Shown here: piece by piece, positions 52,139 to 61,352 of the stretch
How positions within the stretch are numbered: the stretch's first letter is position 1
Layout: every line of letters starts with the position of its first letter
Origin: Chitinophagales bacterium
Lineage (GTDB): Bacteria; Bacteroidota; Bacteroidia; Chitinophagales; LD1
Assembly: GCA_016786765.1 (NCBI GenBank)
Contig: JAEUUZ010000003.1
Span: 1-64,000 of the forward strand
Length of the DNA: 64,000 nucleotides
Direction: 5' to 3'
Translations under genes and position numbers: made by a program
The notes under the pieces: model-generated
What the model was told of the DNA's origin: nothing
Seen by the model: only the letters and a program-made list of their open reading frames with translations
Database searches by the model: none

Positions 52139-52711
52139 ATGACCGATAGTGCTTTATTAGAACTCTTTCACAATGGAGCTCGTGAGCGCGCGTTTAATTT
52201 GTTGATGGACAAATATCAGCAAAAATTGTATTGGCATATTCGAAGAATCGTGAACAATCACGATCATACGGGCGATGTGCTCCAAAACACCTTTATTAAA
52301 GCGTGGCAAGGCTTAGACAACTTTCGCGCTGAATCGCAGTTGTTTTCGTGGTTGTACAGAATTGCCACAAACGAAAGCATTAACTTTTTAAATAAGGAGA
52401 AGAAACATTCTTCCATCTCTTTTGAGGGTGGCTTTGGCCTAGATAATGACGAAGAAGGCAATTCTTCTGCGCCACAAAACTATGTACAAAGCAGTGGATC
52501 CGATATTGATGGCGACAAAATTCAGGCGAAGTTAGAGAAAGCCATTGCAGCGTTGCCGGAAAAACAACGCATTGTTTTCAACCTTCGCTATTATGATGAA
52601 ATGCCTTACGAGCAAATGAGTGACGTGCTGCAAACCTCTGTTGGCGCATTAAAGGCATCGTATTTTCATGCAGCACAAAAAATTGAAGCAGCGCTTTTGC
52701 GAGAAGAATAA
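52139..52711 (+). CDS. ECF-type RNA polymerase sigma factor
   Basis: A 190-residue sigma-70 family factor of the extracytoplasmic function type. Region 2 is seen as LLMDKYQQKLYWHIRRIVNN through DVLQNTFIKAWQGLDNFR and WLYRIATNESINFL (-10 recognition); region 4 is ALPEKQRIVFNLRYYDEMPY with the helix-turn-helix MSDVLQTSVGALKASYFHA. It starts 5 bp after the transketolase gene and is followed by a membrane protein and a small exported protein that probably form its control module. Confidence 0.93.
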   Translation: MTDSALLELFHNGARERAFNLLMDKYQQKLYWHIRRIVNNHDHTGDVLQNTFIKAWQGLDNFRAESQLFSWLYRIATNESINFLNKEKKHSSISFEGGFGLDNDEEGNSSAPQNYVQSSGSDIDGDKIQAKLEKAIAALPEKQRIVFNLRYYDEMPYEQMSDVLQTSVGALKASYFHAAQKIEAALLREE

Positions 52712-52762
52712 TTTACAGGAGATTAAACCTTTTGCGTTTTGAATGGTCATAACGACACAAAA

Positions 52763-53395
52763 ATGAAAACAGAGAATACCATACGAGAAGAATTAAAGCA
52801 CATTGCTCCTGTTTTAGCCAATGTTGAAAAACAAGGGAATGATGTGGTTTCTGCTGAATTTTTTTCTGCACTAAACGAAAACGTGATGAACGCTATTCGT
52901 GCAGCAGAGAAGCAAAAAGAGCTACAGCCTATTGCTCCGTTATTAGCTTCTCTTGAAAAGAATAAAGAGGCCGTTGTCTCTGATACTTTCTTTGCACAAA
53001 TGCAAGCAAAAACTTGGAAACAAATTCAAAGCCAATCATCAACTACTAAAAAGCAAGTGTCGAAAAAAACAAATGCTTTGGATCGATTGCTCGATTTGCT
53101 TTTCAGACCAAGTTTCGCGATGGGTTTTGCCGCTTTTTGTGCTTTAGTATTTTGTGGAACGCTCTTCTTGTCGAACAATTCAACGCAAGATTATACAACC
53201 ATTGCTAGTGCTCAACAGCTTACCAACAGTGAAATTCAAGCTTATATTGCTGAAAACAATGACGAGTTTGACGAATCGATATTGACAAAAGATTGGGAGA
53301 CTATCGACAACAAAAGCATACTCGAAAATTCAACGCTGAATGAAGAAGAGTTGAATGCCTATTATAATAGTGAACTAAACAACGAAAAAATATAA
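52763..53395 (+). CDS. putative anti-sigma factor with one membrane helix and an internal duplication
   Basis: A 210-residue protein: a cytoplasmic N-terminal part (~1-110), one membrane helix (~113-132, FAMGFAAFCALVFCGTLFLS) and an acidic external C-terminus. The N-terminal part contains two copies of a ~35-residue unit: LKHIAPVLANVEKQ...VVSAEFFSALNENV and LQPIAPLLASLEKN...VVSDTFFAQMQAKT. Position directly after the ECF sigma gene and topology suggest an anti-sigma factor; sequence alone does not prove it. ATG 52763 is chosen over an upstream TTG. Confidence 0.72.
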   Translation: MKTENTIREELKHIAPVLANVEKQGNDVVSAEFFSALNENVMNAIRAAEKQKELQPIAPLLASLEKNKEAVVSDTFFAQMQAKTWKQIQSQSSTTKKQVSKKTNALDRLLDLLFRPSFAMGFAAFCALVFCGTLFLSNNSTQDYTTIASAQQLTNSEIQAYIAENNDEFDESILTKDWETIDNKSILENSTLNEEELNAYYNSELNNEKI

Positions 53396-53396
53396 C

Positions 53397-53807
53397 ATGA
53401 AAACGCTAATCAACATCTTGCTTTTAAGCCTTGCGCTTTCTGCAACAGCTCAACAACCACAAGATAAAGGTCGCCACGAACGCGTAGAGTCTTTCCGTAT
53501 CGCTTATATCACAGAGCATTTAAAGCTTACTCCTGAAGAAGCGCAGCGATTTTGGCCGGTGTATAATGCTTATCGAGCGGATATGAAAACACTTCGTCAG
53601 AATTTTAAGGCCGATGATAAAGATGGCACTCCACTAACTGCCGATCAACAATTAGAGTTCGAACAAAAAAAATTGGATTTAAAGAAACGCTTTAAGCCTC
53701 AATTTGAGCAAGCCATTGGAAAAGAAAAGCTAAACCTACTCATGCAAGTTGAGGAAGACTTTAAGCGTGAACTGATGAAAGCCATGCAAGAGCGAAGAGG
53801 AAGATAA
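53397..53807 (+). CDS. Spy/CpxP-like small exported protein
   Basis: A 136-residue protein with a signal peptide (MKTLINILLLSLALSATAQ) and a helical, charged mature region. ITEHLKLTPEEAQRFWPVYNAY is a good match to the LTxxQ-type helix of Spy/CpxP proteins and related Bacteroidota sensors; the rest is K/E/R-rich helix. It starts 1 bp after the anti-sigma gene. It may be a chaperone or stress sensor in the envelope that feeds back on the sigma factor. It converges with the DUF1398 gene, 21 bp apart. Confidence 0.8.
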   Translation: MKTLINILLLSLALSATAQQPQDKGRHERVESFRIAYITEHLKLTPEEAQRFWPVYNAYRADMKTLRQNFKADDKDGTPLTADQQLEFEQKKLDLKKRFKPQFEQAIGKEKLNLLMQVEEDFKRELMKAMQERRGR

Positions 53808-53828: not shown

Positions 53829-54224
53829 TTATAGAGGAATGCTTTCCACTAAAACAGCCCCACTCGAAAGATCAAAATAAGTACAGGTTTTTTCGGAAAC
53901 ATCAATTATCCATTTGTTTACACCCGTCTTTGCGCAATCAGCACAGAAAGTAAAAAAGTCGGTTTCGCCACGTTGATGTCGCTTCAAATCAGCTTGAAAC
54001 TGTTGAGTGTTATGCGTTTCAGCAATAACCAATGGCGGATACTTTGATGCAGCGGTTACGGCATAACTTCCTTGTCCATGAAAAACAGTATTCCCGTCAA
54101 CAACAAAGGTTTCTATACGAATTACTCCCATGTCTATGAGCTCTTTCATGTAGTTCGGAAAATCAGCTCCGCTTTTTACTCTTGCCTCAGCGGTATTCAA
54201 CTGTTCTAGCGTGAAATGTTGCAT
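53829..54224 (-). CDS. DUF1398 family protein
   Basis: A 131-residue cytoplasmic protein. The N-terminal QLNTAEARVKSGADFPNYMKEL and the middle IETFVVDGNTVFHGQGSYAV fit the DUF1398 family, whose members are found as stress-associated proteins of unknown role. The C-terminal part includes FCADCAKTGVNKWIIDV with a Cys pair. It is 8 bp downstream of the caspase-like gene and probably the last gene of that operon. Confidence 0.82.
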   Translation of the reverse strand: MQHFTLEQLNTAEARVKSGADFPNYMKELIDMGVIRIETFVVDGNTVFHGQGSYAVTAASKYPPLVIAETHNTQQFQADLKRHQRGETDFFTFCADCAKTGVNKWIIDVSEKTCTYFDLSSGAVLVESIPL

Positions 54225-54232
54225 ATATCTGT

Positions 54233-56323
54233 TTATTGAATCGCACCTGTTAATTTCATATAAGAGCGAATGAATACAGCGCCAACATTTTTGTGAGGAG
54301 GAATGTAATCTACAAATCGAATGTACGATTCAGAGCCTTTCAATTGCTTATCGAGGTCCGACCAAATTTGTGCCCACTCAACGTCTCTGCCTTCACGTAC
54401 AGCATCTGCAATACGTTTCAACATAGGATTATTCACGCCTTGCACACCAATTTGTTTCGATGAAATAATATGCGCTTCAGGAGCCCGTTGGATTACTCCC
54501 GAAAGATTGTGATACCCACCACAAGAGCCCAACACAAAGAGCTTGGCAGATGGTTTTATTTTCTCAATTGTTTTCGAAGCATAATAACTATGTCCGCGGT
54601 GTATCAACACATCCGGTTGAATACCTGCGCTGTCCAATATTCGCTCAAGATACGCTTGTCCTTCATATTCTGCCTTTGGCTTATTGGCATAAATTACAAC
54701 GGGTTGGCCATTTACTGAGCGAATAACCACATGCAATGAGTCCTCTTCCTTTACCGCCCAATTCTTATCGGCAAAAGTGTTCATAAACGACTTAAACGAA
54801 GCTCCACCGTCTTCATCATCATAGAAATACATATGCCAAACAGACTCCTTATTTTGTTGGAATAGCGTTGCGTTTTTCAGCATGGTGATATCCGGAATAC
54901 CGTATTTCTCTGAAATGTTCTCGTACCAGTCTTCGTTGAATTCTCTCCCGCTATTGAAAAGACTAGTTAGTAATCCATAAATAGCCATTCCTTCGCGCGA
55001 TTTGGTTTGTTGTGAACGCTTATACTCTTCCCGAATATTTTTGCGAATAAAGGTCAGTAGTGTTTCATCGCTGATTCCAGTATAGGTATCGGCAACTTCC
55101 ACGGCTTGATCAATACTTGTGTTTGCATCATCCAAACCGCAAACGAACATTTTTAATAGAGCCTTTTGGTCGTCTACAGTCATAGTTGCCATAAACTCAT
55201 TCAGCTTTCCAAATGAAGCGCATTGTTTTATAAATGTTCTATAGCGATTCATTCCAACCGACTTCAAAAAGGTGAGTCCGTTTGTTTTTCCCATTTTAGT
55301 GAGAAATCGTTTCAACAAACCGTTAAACGAAGAGGTAAACACTTCTTCTTCGCTATAAACAATGAGCGTATACAGTTGCTCAGGCGTAAAGTTGTCAATC
55401 GATGCAAATCGTTTGCTATCCGGCTCGTTGTGCAATTCGTTCAAATTTCTAACAAATTTCAGCGATTGAATTTCCAATTCCTTTTCTAAAGAGAATTCCC
55501 CAATGGGATCTTTCTGCATACGAATCTGAATCATTTTTTTTAGAAAGGTTACCGGCTTCTGTGTAGTGAAATCTGCTGAAGCTAATGTCATTTCACCTCT
55601 TACGATGGGGTCCATCAGAACATAGGCTTGTGTCCGTTTTCCAAGGTTTTCGGTTATTTTCAGAATCTGTTGTACTGCGGGGTCTTTACTTTCTTTAAAT
55701 ATCTTGTTGATGGGGTTGCCCTCCAATACATACTTTTTCATTTCGTTTGGTGCAACTTTACCCACGCGCTCCACAATTTTATTTCTATACGGTCGGTCCC
55801 AATACTGATGATAGTTTTCAACCACTTCCTCCGGATAATTTGTAGCGGCATACAATAAAAAGGGTTCTGTTTCGGGTCGGAAACTATACAAAGAAACCTG
55901 TTTAATCGAAATCAAAATGTTTGTTTTAAGAGCGCTAAACAAATCGTTTTTATAAATGCCATCCAAAATGTGAAGAATATTCGTAATCTCTCGATTGTCT
56001 TTATCTAGGGCGTTTACATTCAGATTCCGTACACGTGTTAATGTATAGTATAAGTAGTAAGCTATCGAATCGCGTTGCCCTTCATTAACATCTACCTTCA
56101 ACATCAAACGCCAAATAGAATCTACTGTTGTAAAATAGATTTTATTAGCCAGTGCCGTTCGTGAAGAATCCGCCAGTTTCAGGCGTCCATCAAGTTTGCC
56201 ATCGAGCTTGTCGATTCGGTTTTTTTCCTTTATGAGGTAAAAGATAGGGTCGTTTTCCTTCTGTGCATTACTAGTTTGCGACAAGGCAAAGAGCAAACAA
56301 AAGATGGTTAATGCTTTTTTCAT
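54233..56323 (-). CDS. secreted protein with caspase-like C-terminal domain, smaller paralogue
   Basis: A 696-residue exported protein (signal peptide MKKALTIFCLLFALSQTSNA). Residues ~20-480 are helical and resemble the corresponding parts of the larger upstream paralogue (for example RFASIDNFTPEQLYTLIVYS). Residues ~500-696 form a domain with MYFYDDEDGG, VLIHRGHSYY (His578) and LFVLGSCGGY (Cys601), 23 residues apart, then IISSKQIGVQGVNNP and DYIPPHKN. A strand-HG/HS then strand-xCGG arrangement resembles clan CD peptidases (caspase, gingipain, CHAT); this is inference. ATG 56323 is preferred to TTG 56338. I know no named family for it. It is transcribed with its paralogue (4-bp gap) and DUF1398. 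Confidence 0.78.
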   Translation of the reverse strand: MKKALTIFCLLFALSQTSNAQKENDPIFYLIKEKNRIDKLDGKLDGRLKLADSSRTALANKIYFTTVDSIWRLMLKVDVNEGQRDSIAYYLYYTLTRVRNLNVNALDKDNREITNILHILDGIYKNDLFSALKTNILISIKQVSLYSFRPETEPFLLYAATNYPEEVVENYHQYWDRPYRNKIVERVGKVAPNEMKKYVLEGNPINKIFKESKDPAVQQILKITENLGKRTQAYVLMDPIVRGEMTLASADFTTQKPVTFLKKMIQIRMQKDPIGEFSLEKELEIQSLKFVRNLNELHNEPDSKRFASIDNFTPEQLYTLIVYSEEEVFTSSFNGLLKRFLTKMGKTNGLTFLKSVGMNRYRTFIKQCASFGKLNEFMATMTVDDQKALLKMFVCGLDDANTSIDQAVEVADTYTGISDETLLTFIRKNIREEYKRSQQTKSREGMAIYGLLTSLFNSGREFNEDWYENISEKYGIPDITMLKNATLFQQNKESVWHMYFYDDEDGGASFKSFMNTFADKNWAVKEEDSLHVVIRSVNGQPVVIYANKPKAEYEGQAYLERILDSAGIQPDVLIHRGHSYYASKTIEKIKPSAKLFVLGSCGGYHNLSGVIQRAPEAHIISSKQIGVQGVNNPMLKRIADAVREGRDVEWAQIWSDLDKQLKGSESYIRFVDYIPPHKNVGAVFIRSYMKLTGAIQ

Positions 56324-56327
56324 AGTT

Positions 56328-59300
56328 CTATAATCCAAATGTTTTATAATAAGCCCGTTGAAATAGCGATTCTATGTTTTTATGCGGAGGAACATAATCG
56401 TAGAATAGCGAGTAATTCCCGAGCTGTAATTTTAATTTCTCCCAAAAAGTAGGCCATTGTATGTCTTGTCGCTGACGAAAAGCTTCGTTAATAGAAAAAA
56501 TAATAGGATCGTTAATGTGTTGTGTTCCGATTTGACGTGTTGCAATGATATGTGCATCGGGAGCGTTCTTGATGGCTATTGATGCTTTGTAGAATCCACC
56601 GCAGGAACCAATAAAAACCAGCTTAGCAGAAGCAGGAATTTTCTCTAATGTTTTTTCGGTATGAAAGCTATGGCCTCGATGAATAATAATAGCAGGTTTA
56701 TAGCCGCCCTCAGCAAAAATCTTGTTGATGTTTAGTTCTCCGCTCTCTTCGTAGGACGGTTTATTGGCAAATATTTCAATGTTTTTACCAATTGTACTGG
56801 TTACTCTAACATAGCTGTAGTATTCTTCTAGTTTCCAGTTTGTAGAACTTCGGAAAGAAGATAAAAAACTCATATATGAATCCCGACCGTCCGGATCGTC
56901 ATAGAAATACATGCGCTCGATAATTTTTTCATCATTATCCATGCTTTTAAACTGAAGCGTAGCCAAAGCAGATGCTTGGTATTTTTTTGACATGGTGTAA
57001 AACCACTTTTTGTCGTAAACCGCTTTATCTTTACAGAGTCCCGCCAAGATTCCATAAATAGCCATACACTTCGAATCGTTCAAAGAATCACAAGTTGTGT
57101 ATTGTTGTTTTATGTTTTTTTCTATGGCCGACAAAATTTCTTCGCTGTTGGTATTGGCAATAGTTTCAGAAACCATTACGGCATCATCGAAAGAATTATC
57201 GCTTTCATCTAGGTGCGAAACAAATTGTCGCAAAAGAATTTCTCGCTGGCTTGTTGAAAAGTAAGAAAGAAGCTTGGACAACTTGTAGTTTGTTGCACAC
57301 AGGGCAACAAAGGTTCTCAATTTAGGTAAGGCTAAAAAACGTTGAAAGGCGATGTCGTCCATGGGTTGAAGCGAACTTTCGAAACGGGCAAAAATTCCAA
57401 GAAATGTGCTGTTGAACACTTCTTCTCGACCATAAACCGTTGCATAGTATAGCTCCTCTTTACTCAGATTATCTAATGCTGCAAATCGAATGTTATCAGG
57501 TTGAGCTACCTTATCGTTGATATCGCGTATAAAGCGTAAAGCATAATATGAAAACTCCTTTTCAATACTGTTGCGCCCTACATAGTTTTTCTTTGCAACT
57601 AACTTTACCAACTCCTTAAACAATCTATCTTGATTATTACAAATGGCCAAAGCCGTTTCAATAGACATTTCATTGCCCGTTAGTTGATTAATCAATAGAT
57701 ATGGTTTCGATTTAAAACCTGTAGCCATATTGACTTCTATCATTTTTTTGATAAATGGATTTTCGCTTTTGGCAAGAAAAAACGTGACTAAATGATATGG
57801 ATTTACCAAATATTTTTTTGCAGAAACTGGCGCCTGCAGTGCAGCTTTTTCCAACACTTCTTGCATAAAATATTTTGACTTAAATTTTTCTGCCCTTTTA
57901 AACACCTCGTCCGGTTCTATTTCTGCGGCATACAACAAAATTTCTTTAGCAAAAGGCTCGTTGATAAAAGCATCTATGTTTTGCAACGAAGCATATATAT
58001 TCTTTTTATAAATGAGCTTCCGTTTTTGCTCATCTGTAAAATCAAAATAAACCGGTTCAATGATTTCCTCAGCCGGCTCTAGAGATGGTTTTAACACCTC
58101 TACTTTCTGATCAATTTTAATTTTGTCTTCAATCTTAGCAAGCGATAATTGAACATCTTCTTTTTTTATTGGGGCTACATCTTCTCTCTTGCGCTGTGGC
58201 AAAGAAGCCGGCTCCTCCTTTTCAACAATAAGGGTGTTTATCATATCCGGGGTAAGGTCGTCTAATGGTTTTTCATAAGAAATAAGCGCTTTTAAAAACA
58301 AGCTGTTGGGCTCTCCCACGATTCGGATAAACGACTCCAACTTATCTTCCTGTTGTAAAAACCGAACGAATTCAGCCAAGCGACCCGTTGGAAAATTTTC
58401 CAAAAAGCTTTCTTCCACGGGTACCTCACCTTTCCGTAATAATATGCTTAACATATTCGAAAAATCAATAGGATACATTTCTTTGTATCCATATATCAAA
58501 ACTGCAATAATTTGTTCCTTCGTATATTCTGTTATCTGGTAATAATTTACAATAGCGGCATCCGATTTTAAAGACAATCCCCGAGCTATATCCACAGCCA
58601 TATAGTCCAGTTCTCTGTTCAGCGAATACAAACCAATCGGATTAGGCTGTTTCATCACGTCAACTAGGGCAGAAAAAGCACTCTCTTTTACTGACATTAA
58701 AGTATCGGCTCGAAAAACAGAGATGTCTTTTTTTACAATTGGATCAACTAAAAAATAGGCTTTTGTTCTTGCGGGTAACTTTGTATTAATGGTTCTAAGT
58801 GTTTGAAAAATGCCTGTAGTGTCGTTAAGCAAAATGTCTTTTATCTTAGATGATCCTGCAAAATAACGCTTTGCAGATTCTGGCGCAAATAAAGCAATCT
58901 TGGCAATAATTTTAGGTGCATACCAAAGCGACACAAAAGATTCGCTATTGCGTAAAATCTCATCCGGATATCGTGTAGCCATCGAATCCAAAAAACGATA
59001 TGCAGCCGTATCCATTGAAAATAAACGGAGTGCCTTAATGGAGAGTCGTGGATATTGCAAAACGTTTGCATATAGTTCGTTGCTGTTTTTCCATTGAATC
59101 AAAAAAAGATTATAGCGCAACAAAGAGGTATACTTTCCGTTTTTGAAAAACTCGGGCTCTTTTGTGCTTTCAAGAAAAAAAGCAAGCCGCTGTTGAAACT
59201 CAATCCTATGTTCAATAGTAATAGTGCTGTCGTTAATAGCATTCAAGTTTTTTTGCAACAATGAAAAAAAATCGGAAGGCACTTGTAATTTTTTGTCGCT

Positions 59301-59438
59301 TATAGCATCAATAGCCGCATTTATTCTGGCTGTATTTAACAGATATGCCTCTTCCGAGTTTTGCTGCGCCTCTGTTTTTTTTGACACCAAGAAAACCAAC
59401 AAGAATAAACAACAAAAATATTTGCGACTCAATTCCAT
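56328..59438 (-). CDS. secreted protein with caspase-like C-terminal domain and duplicated N-half, larger paralogue
   Basis: A 1036-residue exported protein (signal MELSRKYFCCLFLLVFLVS...EAQQ). The N-half (~40-410) and second half (~490-1036) look like duplicated copies of the body of the 696-residue paralogue: NPIGLYSLNRELDYMAVDIA in the first and NYVGRNSIEKEFSYYALRFI in the second align with DPIGEFSLEKELEIQSLKFV there. They are joined by a charged, low-complexity linker (~415-480). Only the second copy carries the putative catalytic domain: MYFYDDPDGR, IIIHRGHSFH (His923) and LVFIGSCGGF (Cys946), with the same 23-residue spacing. It heads the paralogue-paralogue-DUF1398 operon, 86 bp from the histidine kinase gene. 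Confidence 0.78.
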   Translation of the reverse strand: MELSRKYFCCLFLLVFLVSKKTEAQQNSEEAYLLNTARINAAIDAISDKKLQVPSDFFSLLQKNLNAINDSTITIEHRIEFQQRLAFFLESTKEPEFFKNGKYTSLLRYNLFLIQWKNSNELYANVLQYPRLSIKALRLFSMDTAAYRFLDSMATRYPDEILRNSESFVSLWYAPKIIAKIALFAPESAKRYFAGSSKIKDILLNDTTGIFQTLRTINTKLPARTKAYFLVDPIVKKDISVFRADTLMSVKESAFSALVDVMKQPNPIGLYSLNRELDYMAVDIARGLSLKSDAAIVNYYQITEYTKEQIIAVLIYGYKEMYPIDFSNMLSILLRKGEVPVEESFLENFPTGRLAEFVRFLQQEDKLESFIRIVGEPNSLFLKALISYEKPLDDLTPDMINTLIVEKEEPASLPQRKREDVAPIKKEDVQLSLAKIEDKIKIDQKVEVLKPSLEPAEEIIEPVYFDFTDEQKRKLIYKKNIYASLQNIDAFINEPFAKEILLYAAEIEPDEVFKRAEKFKSKYFMQEVLEKAALQAPVSAKKYLVNPYHLVTFFLAKSENPFIKKMIEVNMATGFKSKPYLLINQLTGNEMSIETALAICNNQDRLFKELVKLVAKKNYVGRNSIEKEFSYYALRFIRDINDKVAQPDNIRFAALDNLSKEELYYATVYGREEVFNSTFLGIFARFESSLQPMDDIAFQRFLALPKLRTFVALCATNYKLSKLLSYFSTSQREILLRQFVSHLDESDNSFDDAVMVSETIANTNSEEILSAIEKNIKQQYTTCDSLNDSKCMAIYGILAGLCKDKAVYDKKWFYTMSKKYQASALATLQFKSMDNDEKIIERMYFYDDPDGRDSYMSFLSSFRSSTNWKLEEYYSYVRVTSTIGKNIEIFANKPSYEESGELNINKIFAEGGYKPAIIIHRGHSFHTEKTLEKIPASAKLVFIGSCGGFYKASIAIKNAPDAHIIATRQIGTQHINDPIIFSINEAFRQRQDIQWPTFWEKLKLQLGNYSLFYDYVPPHKNIESLFQRAYYKTFGL

Positions 59439-59524: not shown

Positions 59525-60568
59525 TTATGCCAACCTCAGCGCAAAACTAAACGTTGTGCCAATTCCCACTGTACTTCTAACATTCACGGCTTGTCCGTGT
59601 GCTTCCATGATGTGTTTTACAATAGACAAACCGAGGCCCGTTCCGCCTTTTTCTCTAGAACGTGCTTTATCTACACGGTAAAAACGCTCGAACAAACGCG
59701 ATAGGTGTTCTTGTGCAATACCCATTCCATCATCTGAAATTTCTGTGAGTACTGTGCTCTCGGTGGTTGAAAAACCTACAAATACATTCCCCTTTTCTCG
59801 CCCGTATTTTATAGCATTCGAGATTAAATTGTTGAGCACTTGCGAGATGCGAACTTTATCTGCTTCAACATAAAAGGGGCTATTACATTCGCCTTTAAAC
59901 GATAAATTAATCTGCTTACTTTTTGCCTGATAGCTCAGTGCATCAAAAATATCTTGAGTAAGTTGATGAATATCAAAACGCTCCATGTCCAAAACCAATT
60001 TGCCCGATTCGTACTGGGAAATTTGAAGTAAATCCTCTACTATACTGGCCAATCGATCTAAGTTTTTTGTGGCTTTCTCTAAATAATCCTTGTTAATCTT
60101 TGGGTCGGCTAAACCTCCGTCCAGCAGGGTTTCAATATAGCCTTGGGTATTGAAAATAGGGGTTTTTAACTCATGAGACACGTTGCCCAAAAAATCGCGC
60201 CTGTATTGTTCCAGGTTTTTTAATTCTTCAATTTCAGCCGATTTTCGCATCGAAAAATCAATAACCTGCTTTTCAACATCGTCAATAATATTAGCCGATT
60301 GTTGATCATTTACCGGATAGTCTTTACTGATTTTGAGTTGGTTAATTACAGAATAAATCGTTCTTATTTTTTTAAAAACATATTCCTCTAATATCAGGTA
60401 AGAGACCGCATACGTAAACAGAAAACTTCCAATGGAAAGCACAGCTAGCTGGGTCACAGCAATTGAATCTTGTTTCATCCAAAGAAAAAAACCGGTTGCA
60501 ACCAATATAAACATAGCGACTGCCGCAGCAATCATAAATGCAAATCGTTTTTGTGCCGGATTTTTCAA
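59525..60568 (-). CDS. sensor histidine kinase (PhoR-like)
   Basis: A 347-residue membrane sensor kinase. Two N-terminal helices (~10-32 and 38-60) with almost no periplasmic loop, a linker, then the HisKA domain with the phospho-accepting His in FLGNVSHELKTPIFNTQGYI, and a HATPase domain with N-box NLISNAIKYGREKG, D-box SDDGMGIAQEHL and G-box EKGGTGLGLSIVKH. Lack of a sensory loop suggests it senses through the membrane or another protein, as PhoR does with the Pst system. It follows the response regulator gene by 66 bp. Confidence 0.92.
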   Translation of the reverse strand: MKNPAQKRFAFMIAAAVAMFILVATGFFLWMKQDSIAVTQLAVLSIGSFLFTYAVSYLILEEYVFKKIRTIYSVINQLKISKDYPVNDQQSANIIDDVEKQVIDFSMRKSAEIEELKNLEQYRRDFLGNVSHELKTPIFNTQGYIETLLDGGLADPKINKDYLEKATKNLDRLASIVEDLLQISQYESGKLVLDMERFDIHQLTQDIFDALSYQAKSKQINLSFKGECNSPFYVEADKVRISQVLNNLISNAIKYGREKGNVFVGFSTTESTVLTEISDDGMGIAQEHLSRLFERFYRVDKARSREKGGTGLGLSIVKHIMEAHGQAVNVRSTVGIGTTFSFALRLA

Positions 60569-60634: not shown

Positions 60635-61315
60635 TTAAGCGTCAAATTTATAACCAATCCCTTTAATGGTTTTGAAACAATCGTCACCAATTTTTTCACG
60701 CAGTTTTCGAATATGTACATCAATTGTTCGATCACCAACAATGGTATCGTTTCCCCAAACCCGACTCAAAATCTCTTCTCGCTTAAACACTCTTCCGGGC
60801 TTAGAAGCCAACAGCATCAATAGTTCAAACTCTTTTTTGGGCAAAGTTAGCTCTTCCGTTTTCGTTTTTACAATATAACGCTCTCGATCAATTTCTATAT
60901 CGCCTACTTTTACAACAGTTGGCGTTTCTTTTGTTTCCAATCTCCTCATCAATCCTTTGATGCGACTTACCAGCACCTTTGGTTTGATTGGTTTTGTGAT
61001 ATAATCATCGGCTCCTACTTCAAAACCTGCAATCTGCGAATAGTCTTCGTCTCGAGCCGTTAGAAATGTAATCAGTGTGCTTTTAAAATCGGGCATGGCT
61101 CTTAACTCTCTACATGCGGTAATACCATCCATTTTGGGCATCATCAAATCAAGAACAATAAGATGTGGCTTTATTTTTTGTGCAAGATGAATGCCGTCTT
61201 GCCCATTTGATGCCGTATAAACCCAAAACCCTTCCTTTTCTAAATTATATTTCATGAATTCTAACACATCCGGTTCGTCATCCACAAGCAGCACTTTAAA
61301 ATCATTAAACTCCAT
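60635..61315 (-). CDS. OmpR/PhoB-family response regulator
   Basis: A 226-residue transcription factor. Receiver domain: acidic pocket LLVDDEPDVLEF, phospho-acceptor Asp in LIVLDLMMPKMDG, Thr in TFLTARDED and Lys in YITKPIKP. C-terminal winged helix: GRVFKREEILSRVWGNDTIVGDRTIDVHIRKL with the recognition helix in the last part. ATG 61315 gives the standard N-terminus (MEFNDFKVLLVDD). Upstream lies a set of TTAA direct repeats at 11-bp spacing, likely its own binding site. Confidence 0.94.
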   Translation of the reverse strand: MEFNDFKVLLVDDEPDVLEFMKYNLEKEGFWVYTASNGQDGIHLAQKIKPHLIVLDLMMPKMDGITACRELRAMPDFKSTLITFLTARDEDYSQIAGFEVGADDYITKPIKPKVLVSRIKGLMRRLETKETPTVVKVGDIEIDRERYIVKTKTEELTLPKKEFELLMLLASKPGRVFKREEILSRVWGNDTIVGDRTIDVHIRKLREKIGDDCFKTIKGIGYKFDA

Positions 61316-61352
61316 ATCCCCTTTTTGTTTGTGCAAACTTAATATAGTCAAG

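Follow-up and report, generated by a model that had tools for sequence, protein, structure and literature searches.

We consider it moderately probable, judging largely from predicted structures, that two neighboring genes of the window (the whole 64,000-nucleotide stretch of Chitinophagales DNA analyzed here) encode exported cysteine proteases of a clan CD-like family that has not been described before and whose members combine a helical scaffold with a minimal caspase-like domain. Both open reading frames, which a first-pass annotation of this DNA had described as two adjacent paralogues with a caspase-like His-Cys dyad, exist and lie on the minus strand. The short gene (54236..56323, with its ATG at 56323 and the stop at 54233) encodes 696 amino acids, and the long paralogue (56331..59438, open reading frame 59438-56328) encodes 1036. 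The stop of the long gene and the ATG of the short gene are separated by a gap of four bases, and the two genes therefore probably constitute one operon. Export of both products, also proposed in that annotation, agrees with the appearance of their N-termini, which are hydrophobic and resemble Sec-type signal peptides (56261..56323, minus strand, for the signal peptide predicted by inspection of the short protein). In the short protein, this peptide is followed by an all-helical region, apparently a solenoid, that spans approximately residues 111-455 (54959..55993, minus strand; DSSP on an AlphaFold2 model). The helical N-terminal region matches the long protein twice, so that the latter contains two copies, a feature absent from the first-pass annotation; the first of these, the extra one (58179..59351, minus strand), is 24% identical to the short protein over residues 7-382 of the latter.

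The two proteins share the C-terminal domain, which encompasses residues 462-696 of the short protein (54236..54940) and residues 807-1036 of the long one (56331..57020), both on the minus strand. All the motifs on which the claim of a dyad was based were located in both: MYFYDDEDG, HRGHS, GSCGG, IGVQGVNNP, and DYIPPHKN start at positions 498, 575, 599, 625, and 672, respectively, of the short protein, and the corresponding motifs start at 843, 920, 944, 970, and 1014 of the long one. The proposed catalytic histidine is His578 (minus-strand codon 54590..54592) and the proposed nucleophile is Cys601 (54521..54523) in the short protein; the corresponding residues of the long paralogue are His923 (56670..56672) and Cys946 (56601..56603), also on the minus strand, and the His-Cys distance is 23 positions in each.

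As judged from sequence, the pair belongs to a Bacteroidota family that has not been described and has no name in the searched databases. Searches of Pfam, NCBIfam, PHROGs, and PADLOC, as well as of the PDB sequences, with the single sequences and with the domain profile A1 yielded no significant match; the viral contigs searched contained no relatives; and a text search of the literature found no description of the family, the articles retrieved with HRGHS or GSCGG appearing unrelated by title. Whole-genome searches revealed homologues in all 30 genomes of the host's family and in 53 of the 150 genomes of its order. With the domain profile, about 20 of the 345 genomes of the class were positive, two of these through marginal fragments, and in the sample of the phylum every strong match came from the order of the host. 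Those relatives that carry names are uncultured Bacteroidetes.

Conservation of the dyad across homologues, on which the first-pass annotation had made its reading depend, is nearly complete. The cysteine of GSCGG and the HRG tripeptide are present in 105 of the 105 homologous domains, the histidine of GHS in 101, and 104 domains have the spacing of 23, the remaining one having 22; the motif pattern is thus not due to chance. The four losses of the histidine (three HRGLS variants and one HRGYS) all occur in long paralogues that retain the cysteine, whereas both residues are retained in every short or single-copy protein. These four proteins (L048, L049, L050, and L053) are candidate pseudo-proteases. 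In the phylogenetic tree, all 37 long copies form one clade (support 100/98), so the duplication that gave rise to the long copy probably occurred once, before the split of families f1, f4, f10, f19, and f20; the three HRGLS copies sit together on one long branch.

The predicted structure is consistent with the proposed fold. The AlphaFold2 models were built on 14 related sequences. In the model of the mature short protein, an all-helical region (approximately mature residues 90-434) precedes an alpha/beta C-terminal domain, and the latter, when modeled alone, reaches a pLDDT of 87 and a pTM of 0.88. This domain model starts with a strand (33-39) that leads into the DDEDG loop, followed by a helix, three strands, and another helix; a strand at 111-115 then runs into HRGH (H117), a helix (118-126) follows, the strand at 134-138 runs into GSC (C140), and the chain ends with a helix, a strand (157-161), and further helices. 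The dyad histidine and cysteine would accordingly be located after successive strands, at the C-terminal ends of strands 3 and 4, respectively, which is the placement of the catalytic residues in clan CD (PMC4357240). The order of the elements along the predicted chain and the structural matches are compatible with the domain possibly having the caspase/haemoglobinase core, in which the sheet order is 2-1-3-4, with three helices.

A Foldseek search with the domain model produced no matches at E < 0.001. Structural re-ranking of the Foldseek candidates (999 chains) by VIA-align placed the SAVED-CHAT protein 8tl0 first (Z 9.5, 165 aligned residues, rmsd 3.5), followed by separase 5mz6 (Z 7.7), the C11 protease iotapain 6nag (7.2), and caspase-6 (6.8), so that the first four entries are all clan CD proteases. 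Because values of Z < 8 are common by chance, and only the Z of 9.5 clears the level of unrelated folds in this re-ranking, the case for the fold rests on the 2.7 units by which SAVED-CHAT exceeds the best GTPase (Z 6.8), on the clustering of clan CD proteases at the top, and on the placement of the dyad. Taken together, these observations favor a caspase-like alpha/beta domain, the outcome that the first-pass annotation had anticipated from structure prediction. A separate run with the full-length model put TPR-CHAT 7y85 (7.9), Csx29 8eex (7.7), and separase 5fby (7.5) near the top, the matches also including DdvA (Z 8.1), LpoA (Z 6.5), and GTPases. The CHAT profile A4, considered as a probe for a CHAT-like character of DdvA, gave no matches among PDB sequences at all, and no description of the DdvA structure was found in the literature.

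The spacing of the dyad, which had been the main doubt from the outset, is indeed short: 23 residues is the lowest value among the families that we measured, compared with 34 in C25, 48-68 in C14, and 45-82 in CHAT. In caspases, strand 3 is followed by a small insertion of three strands (PMC4357240). The domain model shows no such L3 insertion, and the strand that bears the histidine passes directly into a helix that begins right after this residue; most simply, therefore, the short spacing would reflect a trimmed loop and would not contradict a clan CD fold. The glycine that precedes the catalytic histidine in clan CD (PMC12445089) is present (RGHS in alignment A1), and the histidine is followed by serine rather than by the usual glycine.

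Searches of Pfam for clan CD profiles, recommended in the first-pass annotation, came back empty above the cut-offs. No match to CHAT (PF12770) was found in an hmmscan of 37 domains or in the host genome, none to Peptidase_C14 (PF00656) passed the curated cut-off, and the domains were not matched above cut-off by Peptidase_C25 (PF01364), which does have matches on other contigs of the host genome, or by Peptidase_C11 (PF03415), for which the host genome is also without a match. When the family was compared by hhalign with Bacteroidota sets of CHAT, C14, and C25, CHAT was the best (probability 1.9, score 21.8), with GHS aligned to THG and GSC aligned to SAC along the path. None of sixteen unrelated families exceeded 18.9, and the CHAT score was reached by 6 of 120 block-permuted profiles. 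CHAT and C25, both of clan CD, fail the same test when compared with each other, so that this failure is no argument against clan CD. Kinship with C25 through the DDEDG loop, a likeness noticed by eye, was considered and found no hhalign support, local or global. Sequence profiles thus do not prove kinship with clan CD, and we therefore call the family clan CD-like and do not place it in any known family: as far as prediction goes, that part of the original reading which concerns the fold and the placement and conservation of the dyad has stood.

Two rival explanations of the domain itself have to be weighed against these data. That it adopts some other three-layer alpha/beta fold, Ras-like or similar to periplasmic binding proteins, the whole protein then being a helical envelope regulator akin to LpoA, seems to us quite improbable, even though the top Foldseek rows for the domain are GTPases (Arf, Rab, and FeoB), LpoA appears among the matches of the full-length model, and a weak NCBIfam match to a binding protein (E 0.025) was detected. 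Should the two folds have the parallel sheet order in common, likeness to GTPases would be expected. The P-loop, GxxxxGK[ST], is absent after the first strand, where alignment A1 has the DDEDG loop; the competing matches rank below SAVED-CHAT, at or below the level of caspase-6; and such folds offer no reason why HRG-H and SC, each located where one of two successive strands ends, should be invariant. Somewhat more credible, but still unlikely, is a caspase-like fold devoid of proteolytic activity, that is, a ligand-binding or scaffolding pseudo-protease in which the histidine, arginine, and cysteine serve structure or bind a metal or ligand. HRG is kept more strictly than the GHS histidine, as four long paralogues lack the latter while retaining the cysteine, and the unusually short His-Cys distance points in the same direction. 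However, only the duplicated long copy shows such losses, mostly on one long branch, which is the pattern to be expected of relaxation after duplication.

Next to the gene pair, and also on the minus strand, are genes for a PhoR-like histidine kinase (59525..60568) and a PhoB-like, OmpR-type response regulator (60635..61351), conserved neighbors that score under the equivalog cut-offs. In the window and at locus L004, the order is regulator, kinase, long gene, short gene, and in f10, one additional gene intervenes between the kinase and the long gene. The other f1 genomes have only the kinase or only the regulator nearby, and one has neither, whereas 16 of the 17 f21 genomes have the response regulator as the adjacent, divergently oriented gene. 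Two f21 genomes (L060 and L070) additionally harbor a second, diverged single copy that does not have the two-component system nearby. No linkage to the regulator was seen in the sampled families f4, f6, f17, f19, f20, f74, and f81. At five f74 or f81 loci (L103, L104, L106, L107, and L108), a single-copy homologue adjoins the gene for an RlmB/TrmH-like (RNA) methyltransferase, and in f74, mutS is close by as well. On the other side of the pair in the window, directly downstream of the short gene and on the same strand, lies a gene for a DUF1398 protein (53829-54224; Pfam E 7e-34). Beyond it, a row of genes convergent with the pair (52139-53807) encodes a sigma factor-like protein (recognized by inspection), a putative anti-sigma factor to which no Pfam family matches, and an exported protein of the LTXXQ/Spy-like type, and looks like an envelope-stress cassette.

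There is a substantial chance, slightly below even, that the two-component linkage is merely an inherited neighborhood without a functional tie, which would concern the role of the proteins and not their fold. The seven families without the linkage and the methyltransferase and mutS neighbors in f74 and f81 are compatible with this possibility. Against it, the genes are divergent in f21 but co-directional in f1 and f10, and the association outlasts this change of orientation, more than would be expected from passive descent. The conserved linkage to one PhoB/PhoR-like pair, along with the analogy to TPR-CHAT/Csx29, which cleaves an inhibitor of a sigma factor (PMC10028731), suggests regulated use in an envelope signaling response.

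If the proteins are clan CD-like proteases, as we prefer to think, they would act after export, in the periplasm or at the surface, where the N-terminal solenoid would present a compact domain of the caspase/CHAT/separase-like fold; the histidine of GHS would activate the cysteine of GSCGG for the cleavage of peptide bonds, most probably in an envelope protein held by the solenoid. The short copy would be the likely active enzyme, whereas the long copy, with its second solenoid and with the histidine lost in four genomes, may be a partner or a pseudo-protease. The full scenario, in which a new family of minimal caspase-like proteases resides in the envelope and transduces signals together with a two-component system of its own, the solenoid sensing or holding an envelope protein, the short protein cleaving it, and the long one serving as a regulatory, sometimes catalytically dead partner, is a doubtful proposition that we offer as speculation.

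Among known systems, TPR-CHAT/Csx29 (Craspase) resembles the new family in that a caspase-like domain with a His-Cys dyad follows a scaffold of helical repeats (Z 7.7-7.9 with the full-length model), but it is cytoplasmic and CRISPR-linked and combines a pseudo-caspase CHAT1 with an active CHAT2, whereas the proteins described here are apparently exported and have one such domain; moreover, the Csx29 dyad (H615-C658) is 43 residues apart (PMC10028731), compared with 23. SAVED-CHAT 8tl0, to which the isolated domain is structurally most similar, contains, in addition to CHAT, a sensor of a second messenger, the SAVED domain, and displays no detectable sequence kinship with the family; we know of no helical scaffold in it like the one found here. 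Separase (MEROPS C50) likewise consists of a helical N-terminus and a C-terminal caspase-like domain (Z 7.3-7.7) and has a short His-Cys spacing, about 26, but it is eukaryotic, cleaves cohesin, and shows no sequence match. The C25 proteases (gingipain and PorU) are, like the new proteins, exported from Bacteroidota and, by eye, likewise have a first core strand followed by a DDEDG loop, but differ in spacing, lack hhalign support, and are encoded by separate, true C25 genes in the host genome. The C11 proteases (iotapain and PmC11) are also secreted by Bacteroidota and are structurally similar at Z 7.2, but have a longer spacing (His133-Cys179 in PmC11; PMC4357240), and PF03415 is unmatched in the host genome.

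If active, these proteins would constitute a protease family that neither Pfam nor NCBIfam contains and whose His-Cys spacing is below the values measured here for C25, C14, and CHAT, and would show the plan of separase and TPR-CHAT, a solenoid followed by a caspase-like domain, at work outside the cytoplasm. The conservation of this plan throughout entire families of environmental Bacteroidota, and its tie to a signaling pair, would make its role genetically testable.
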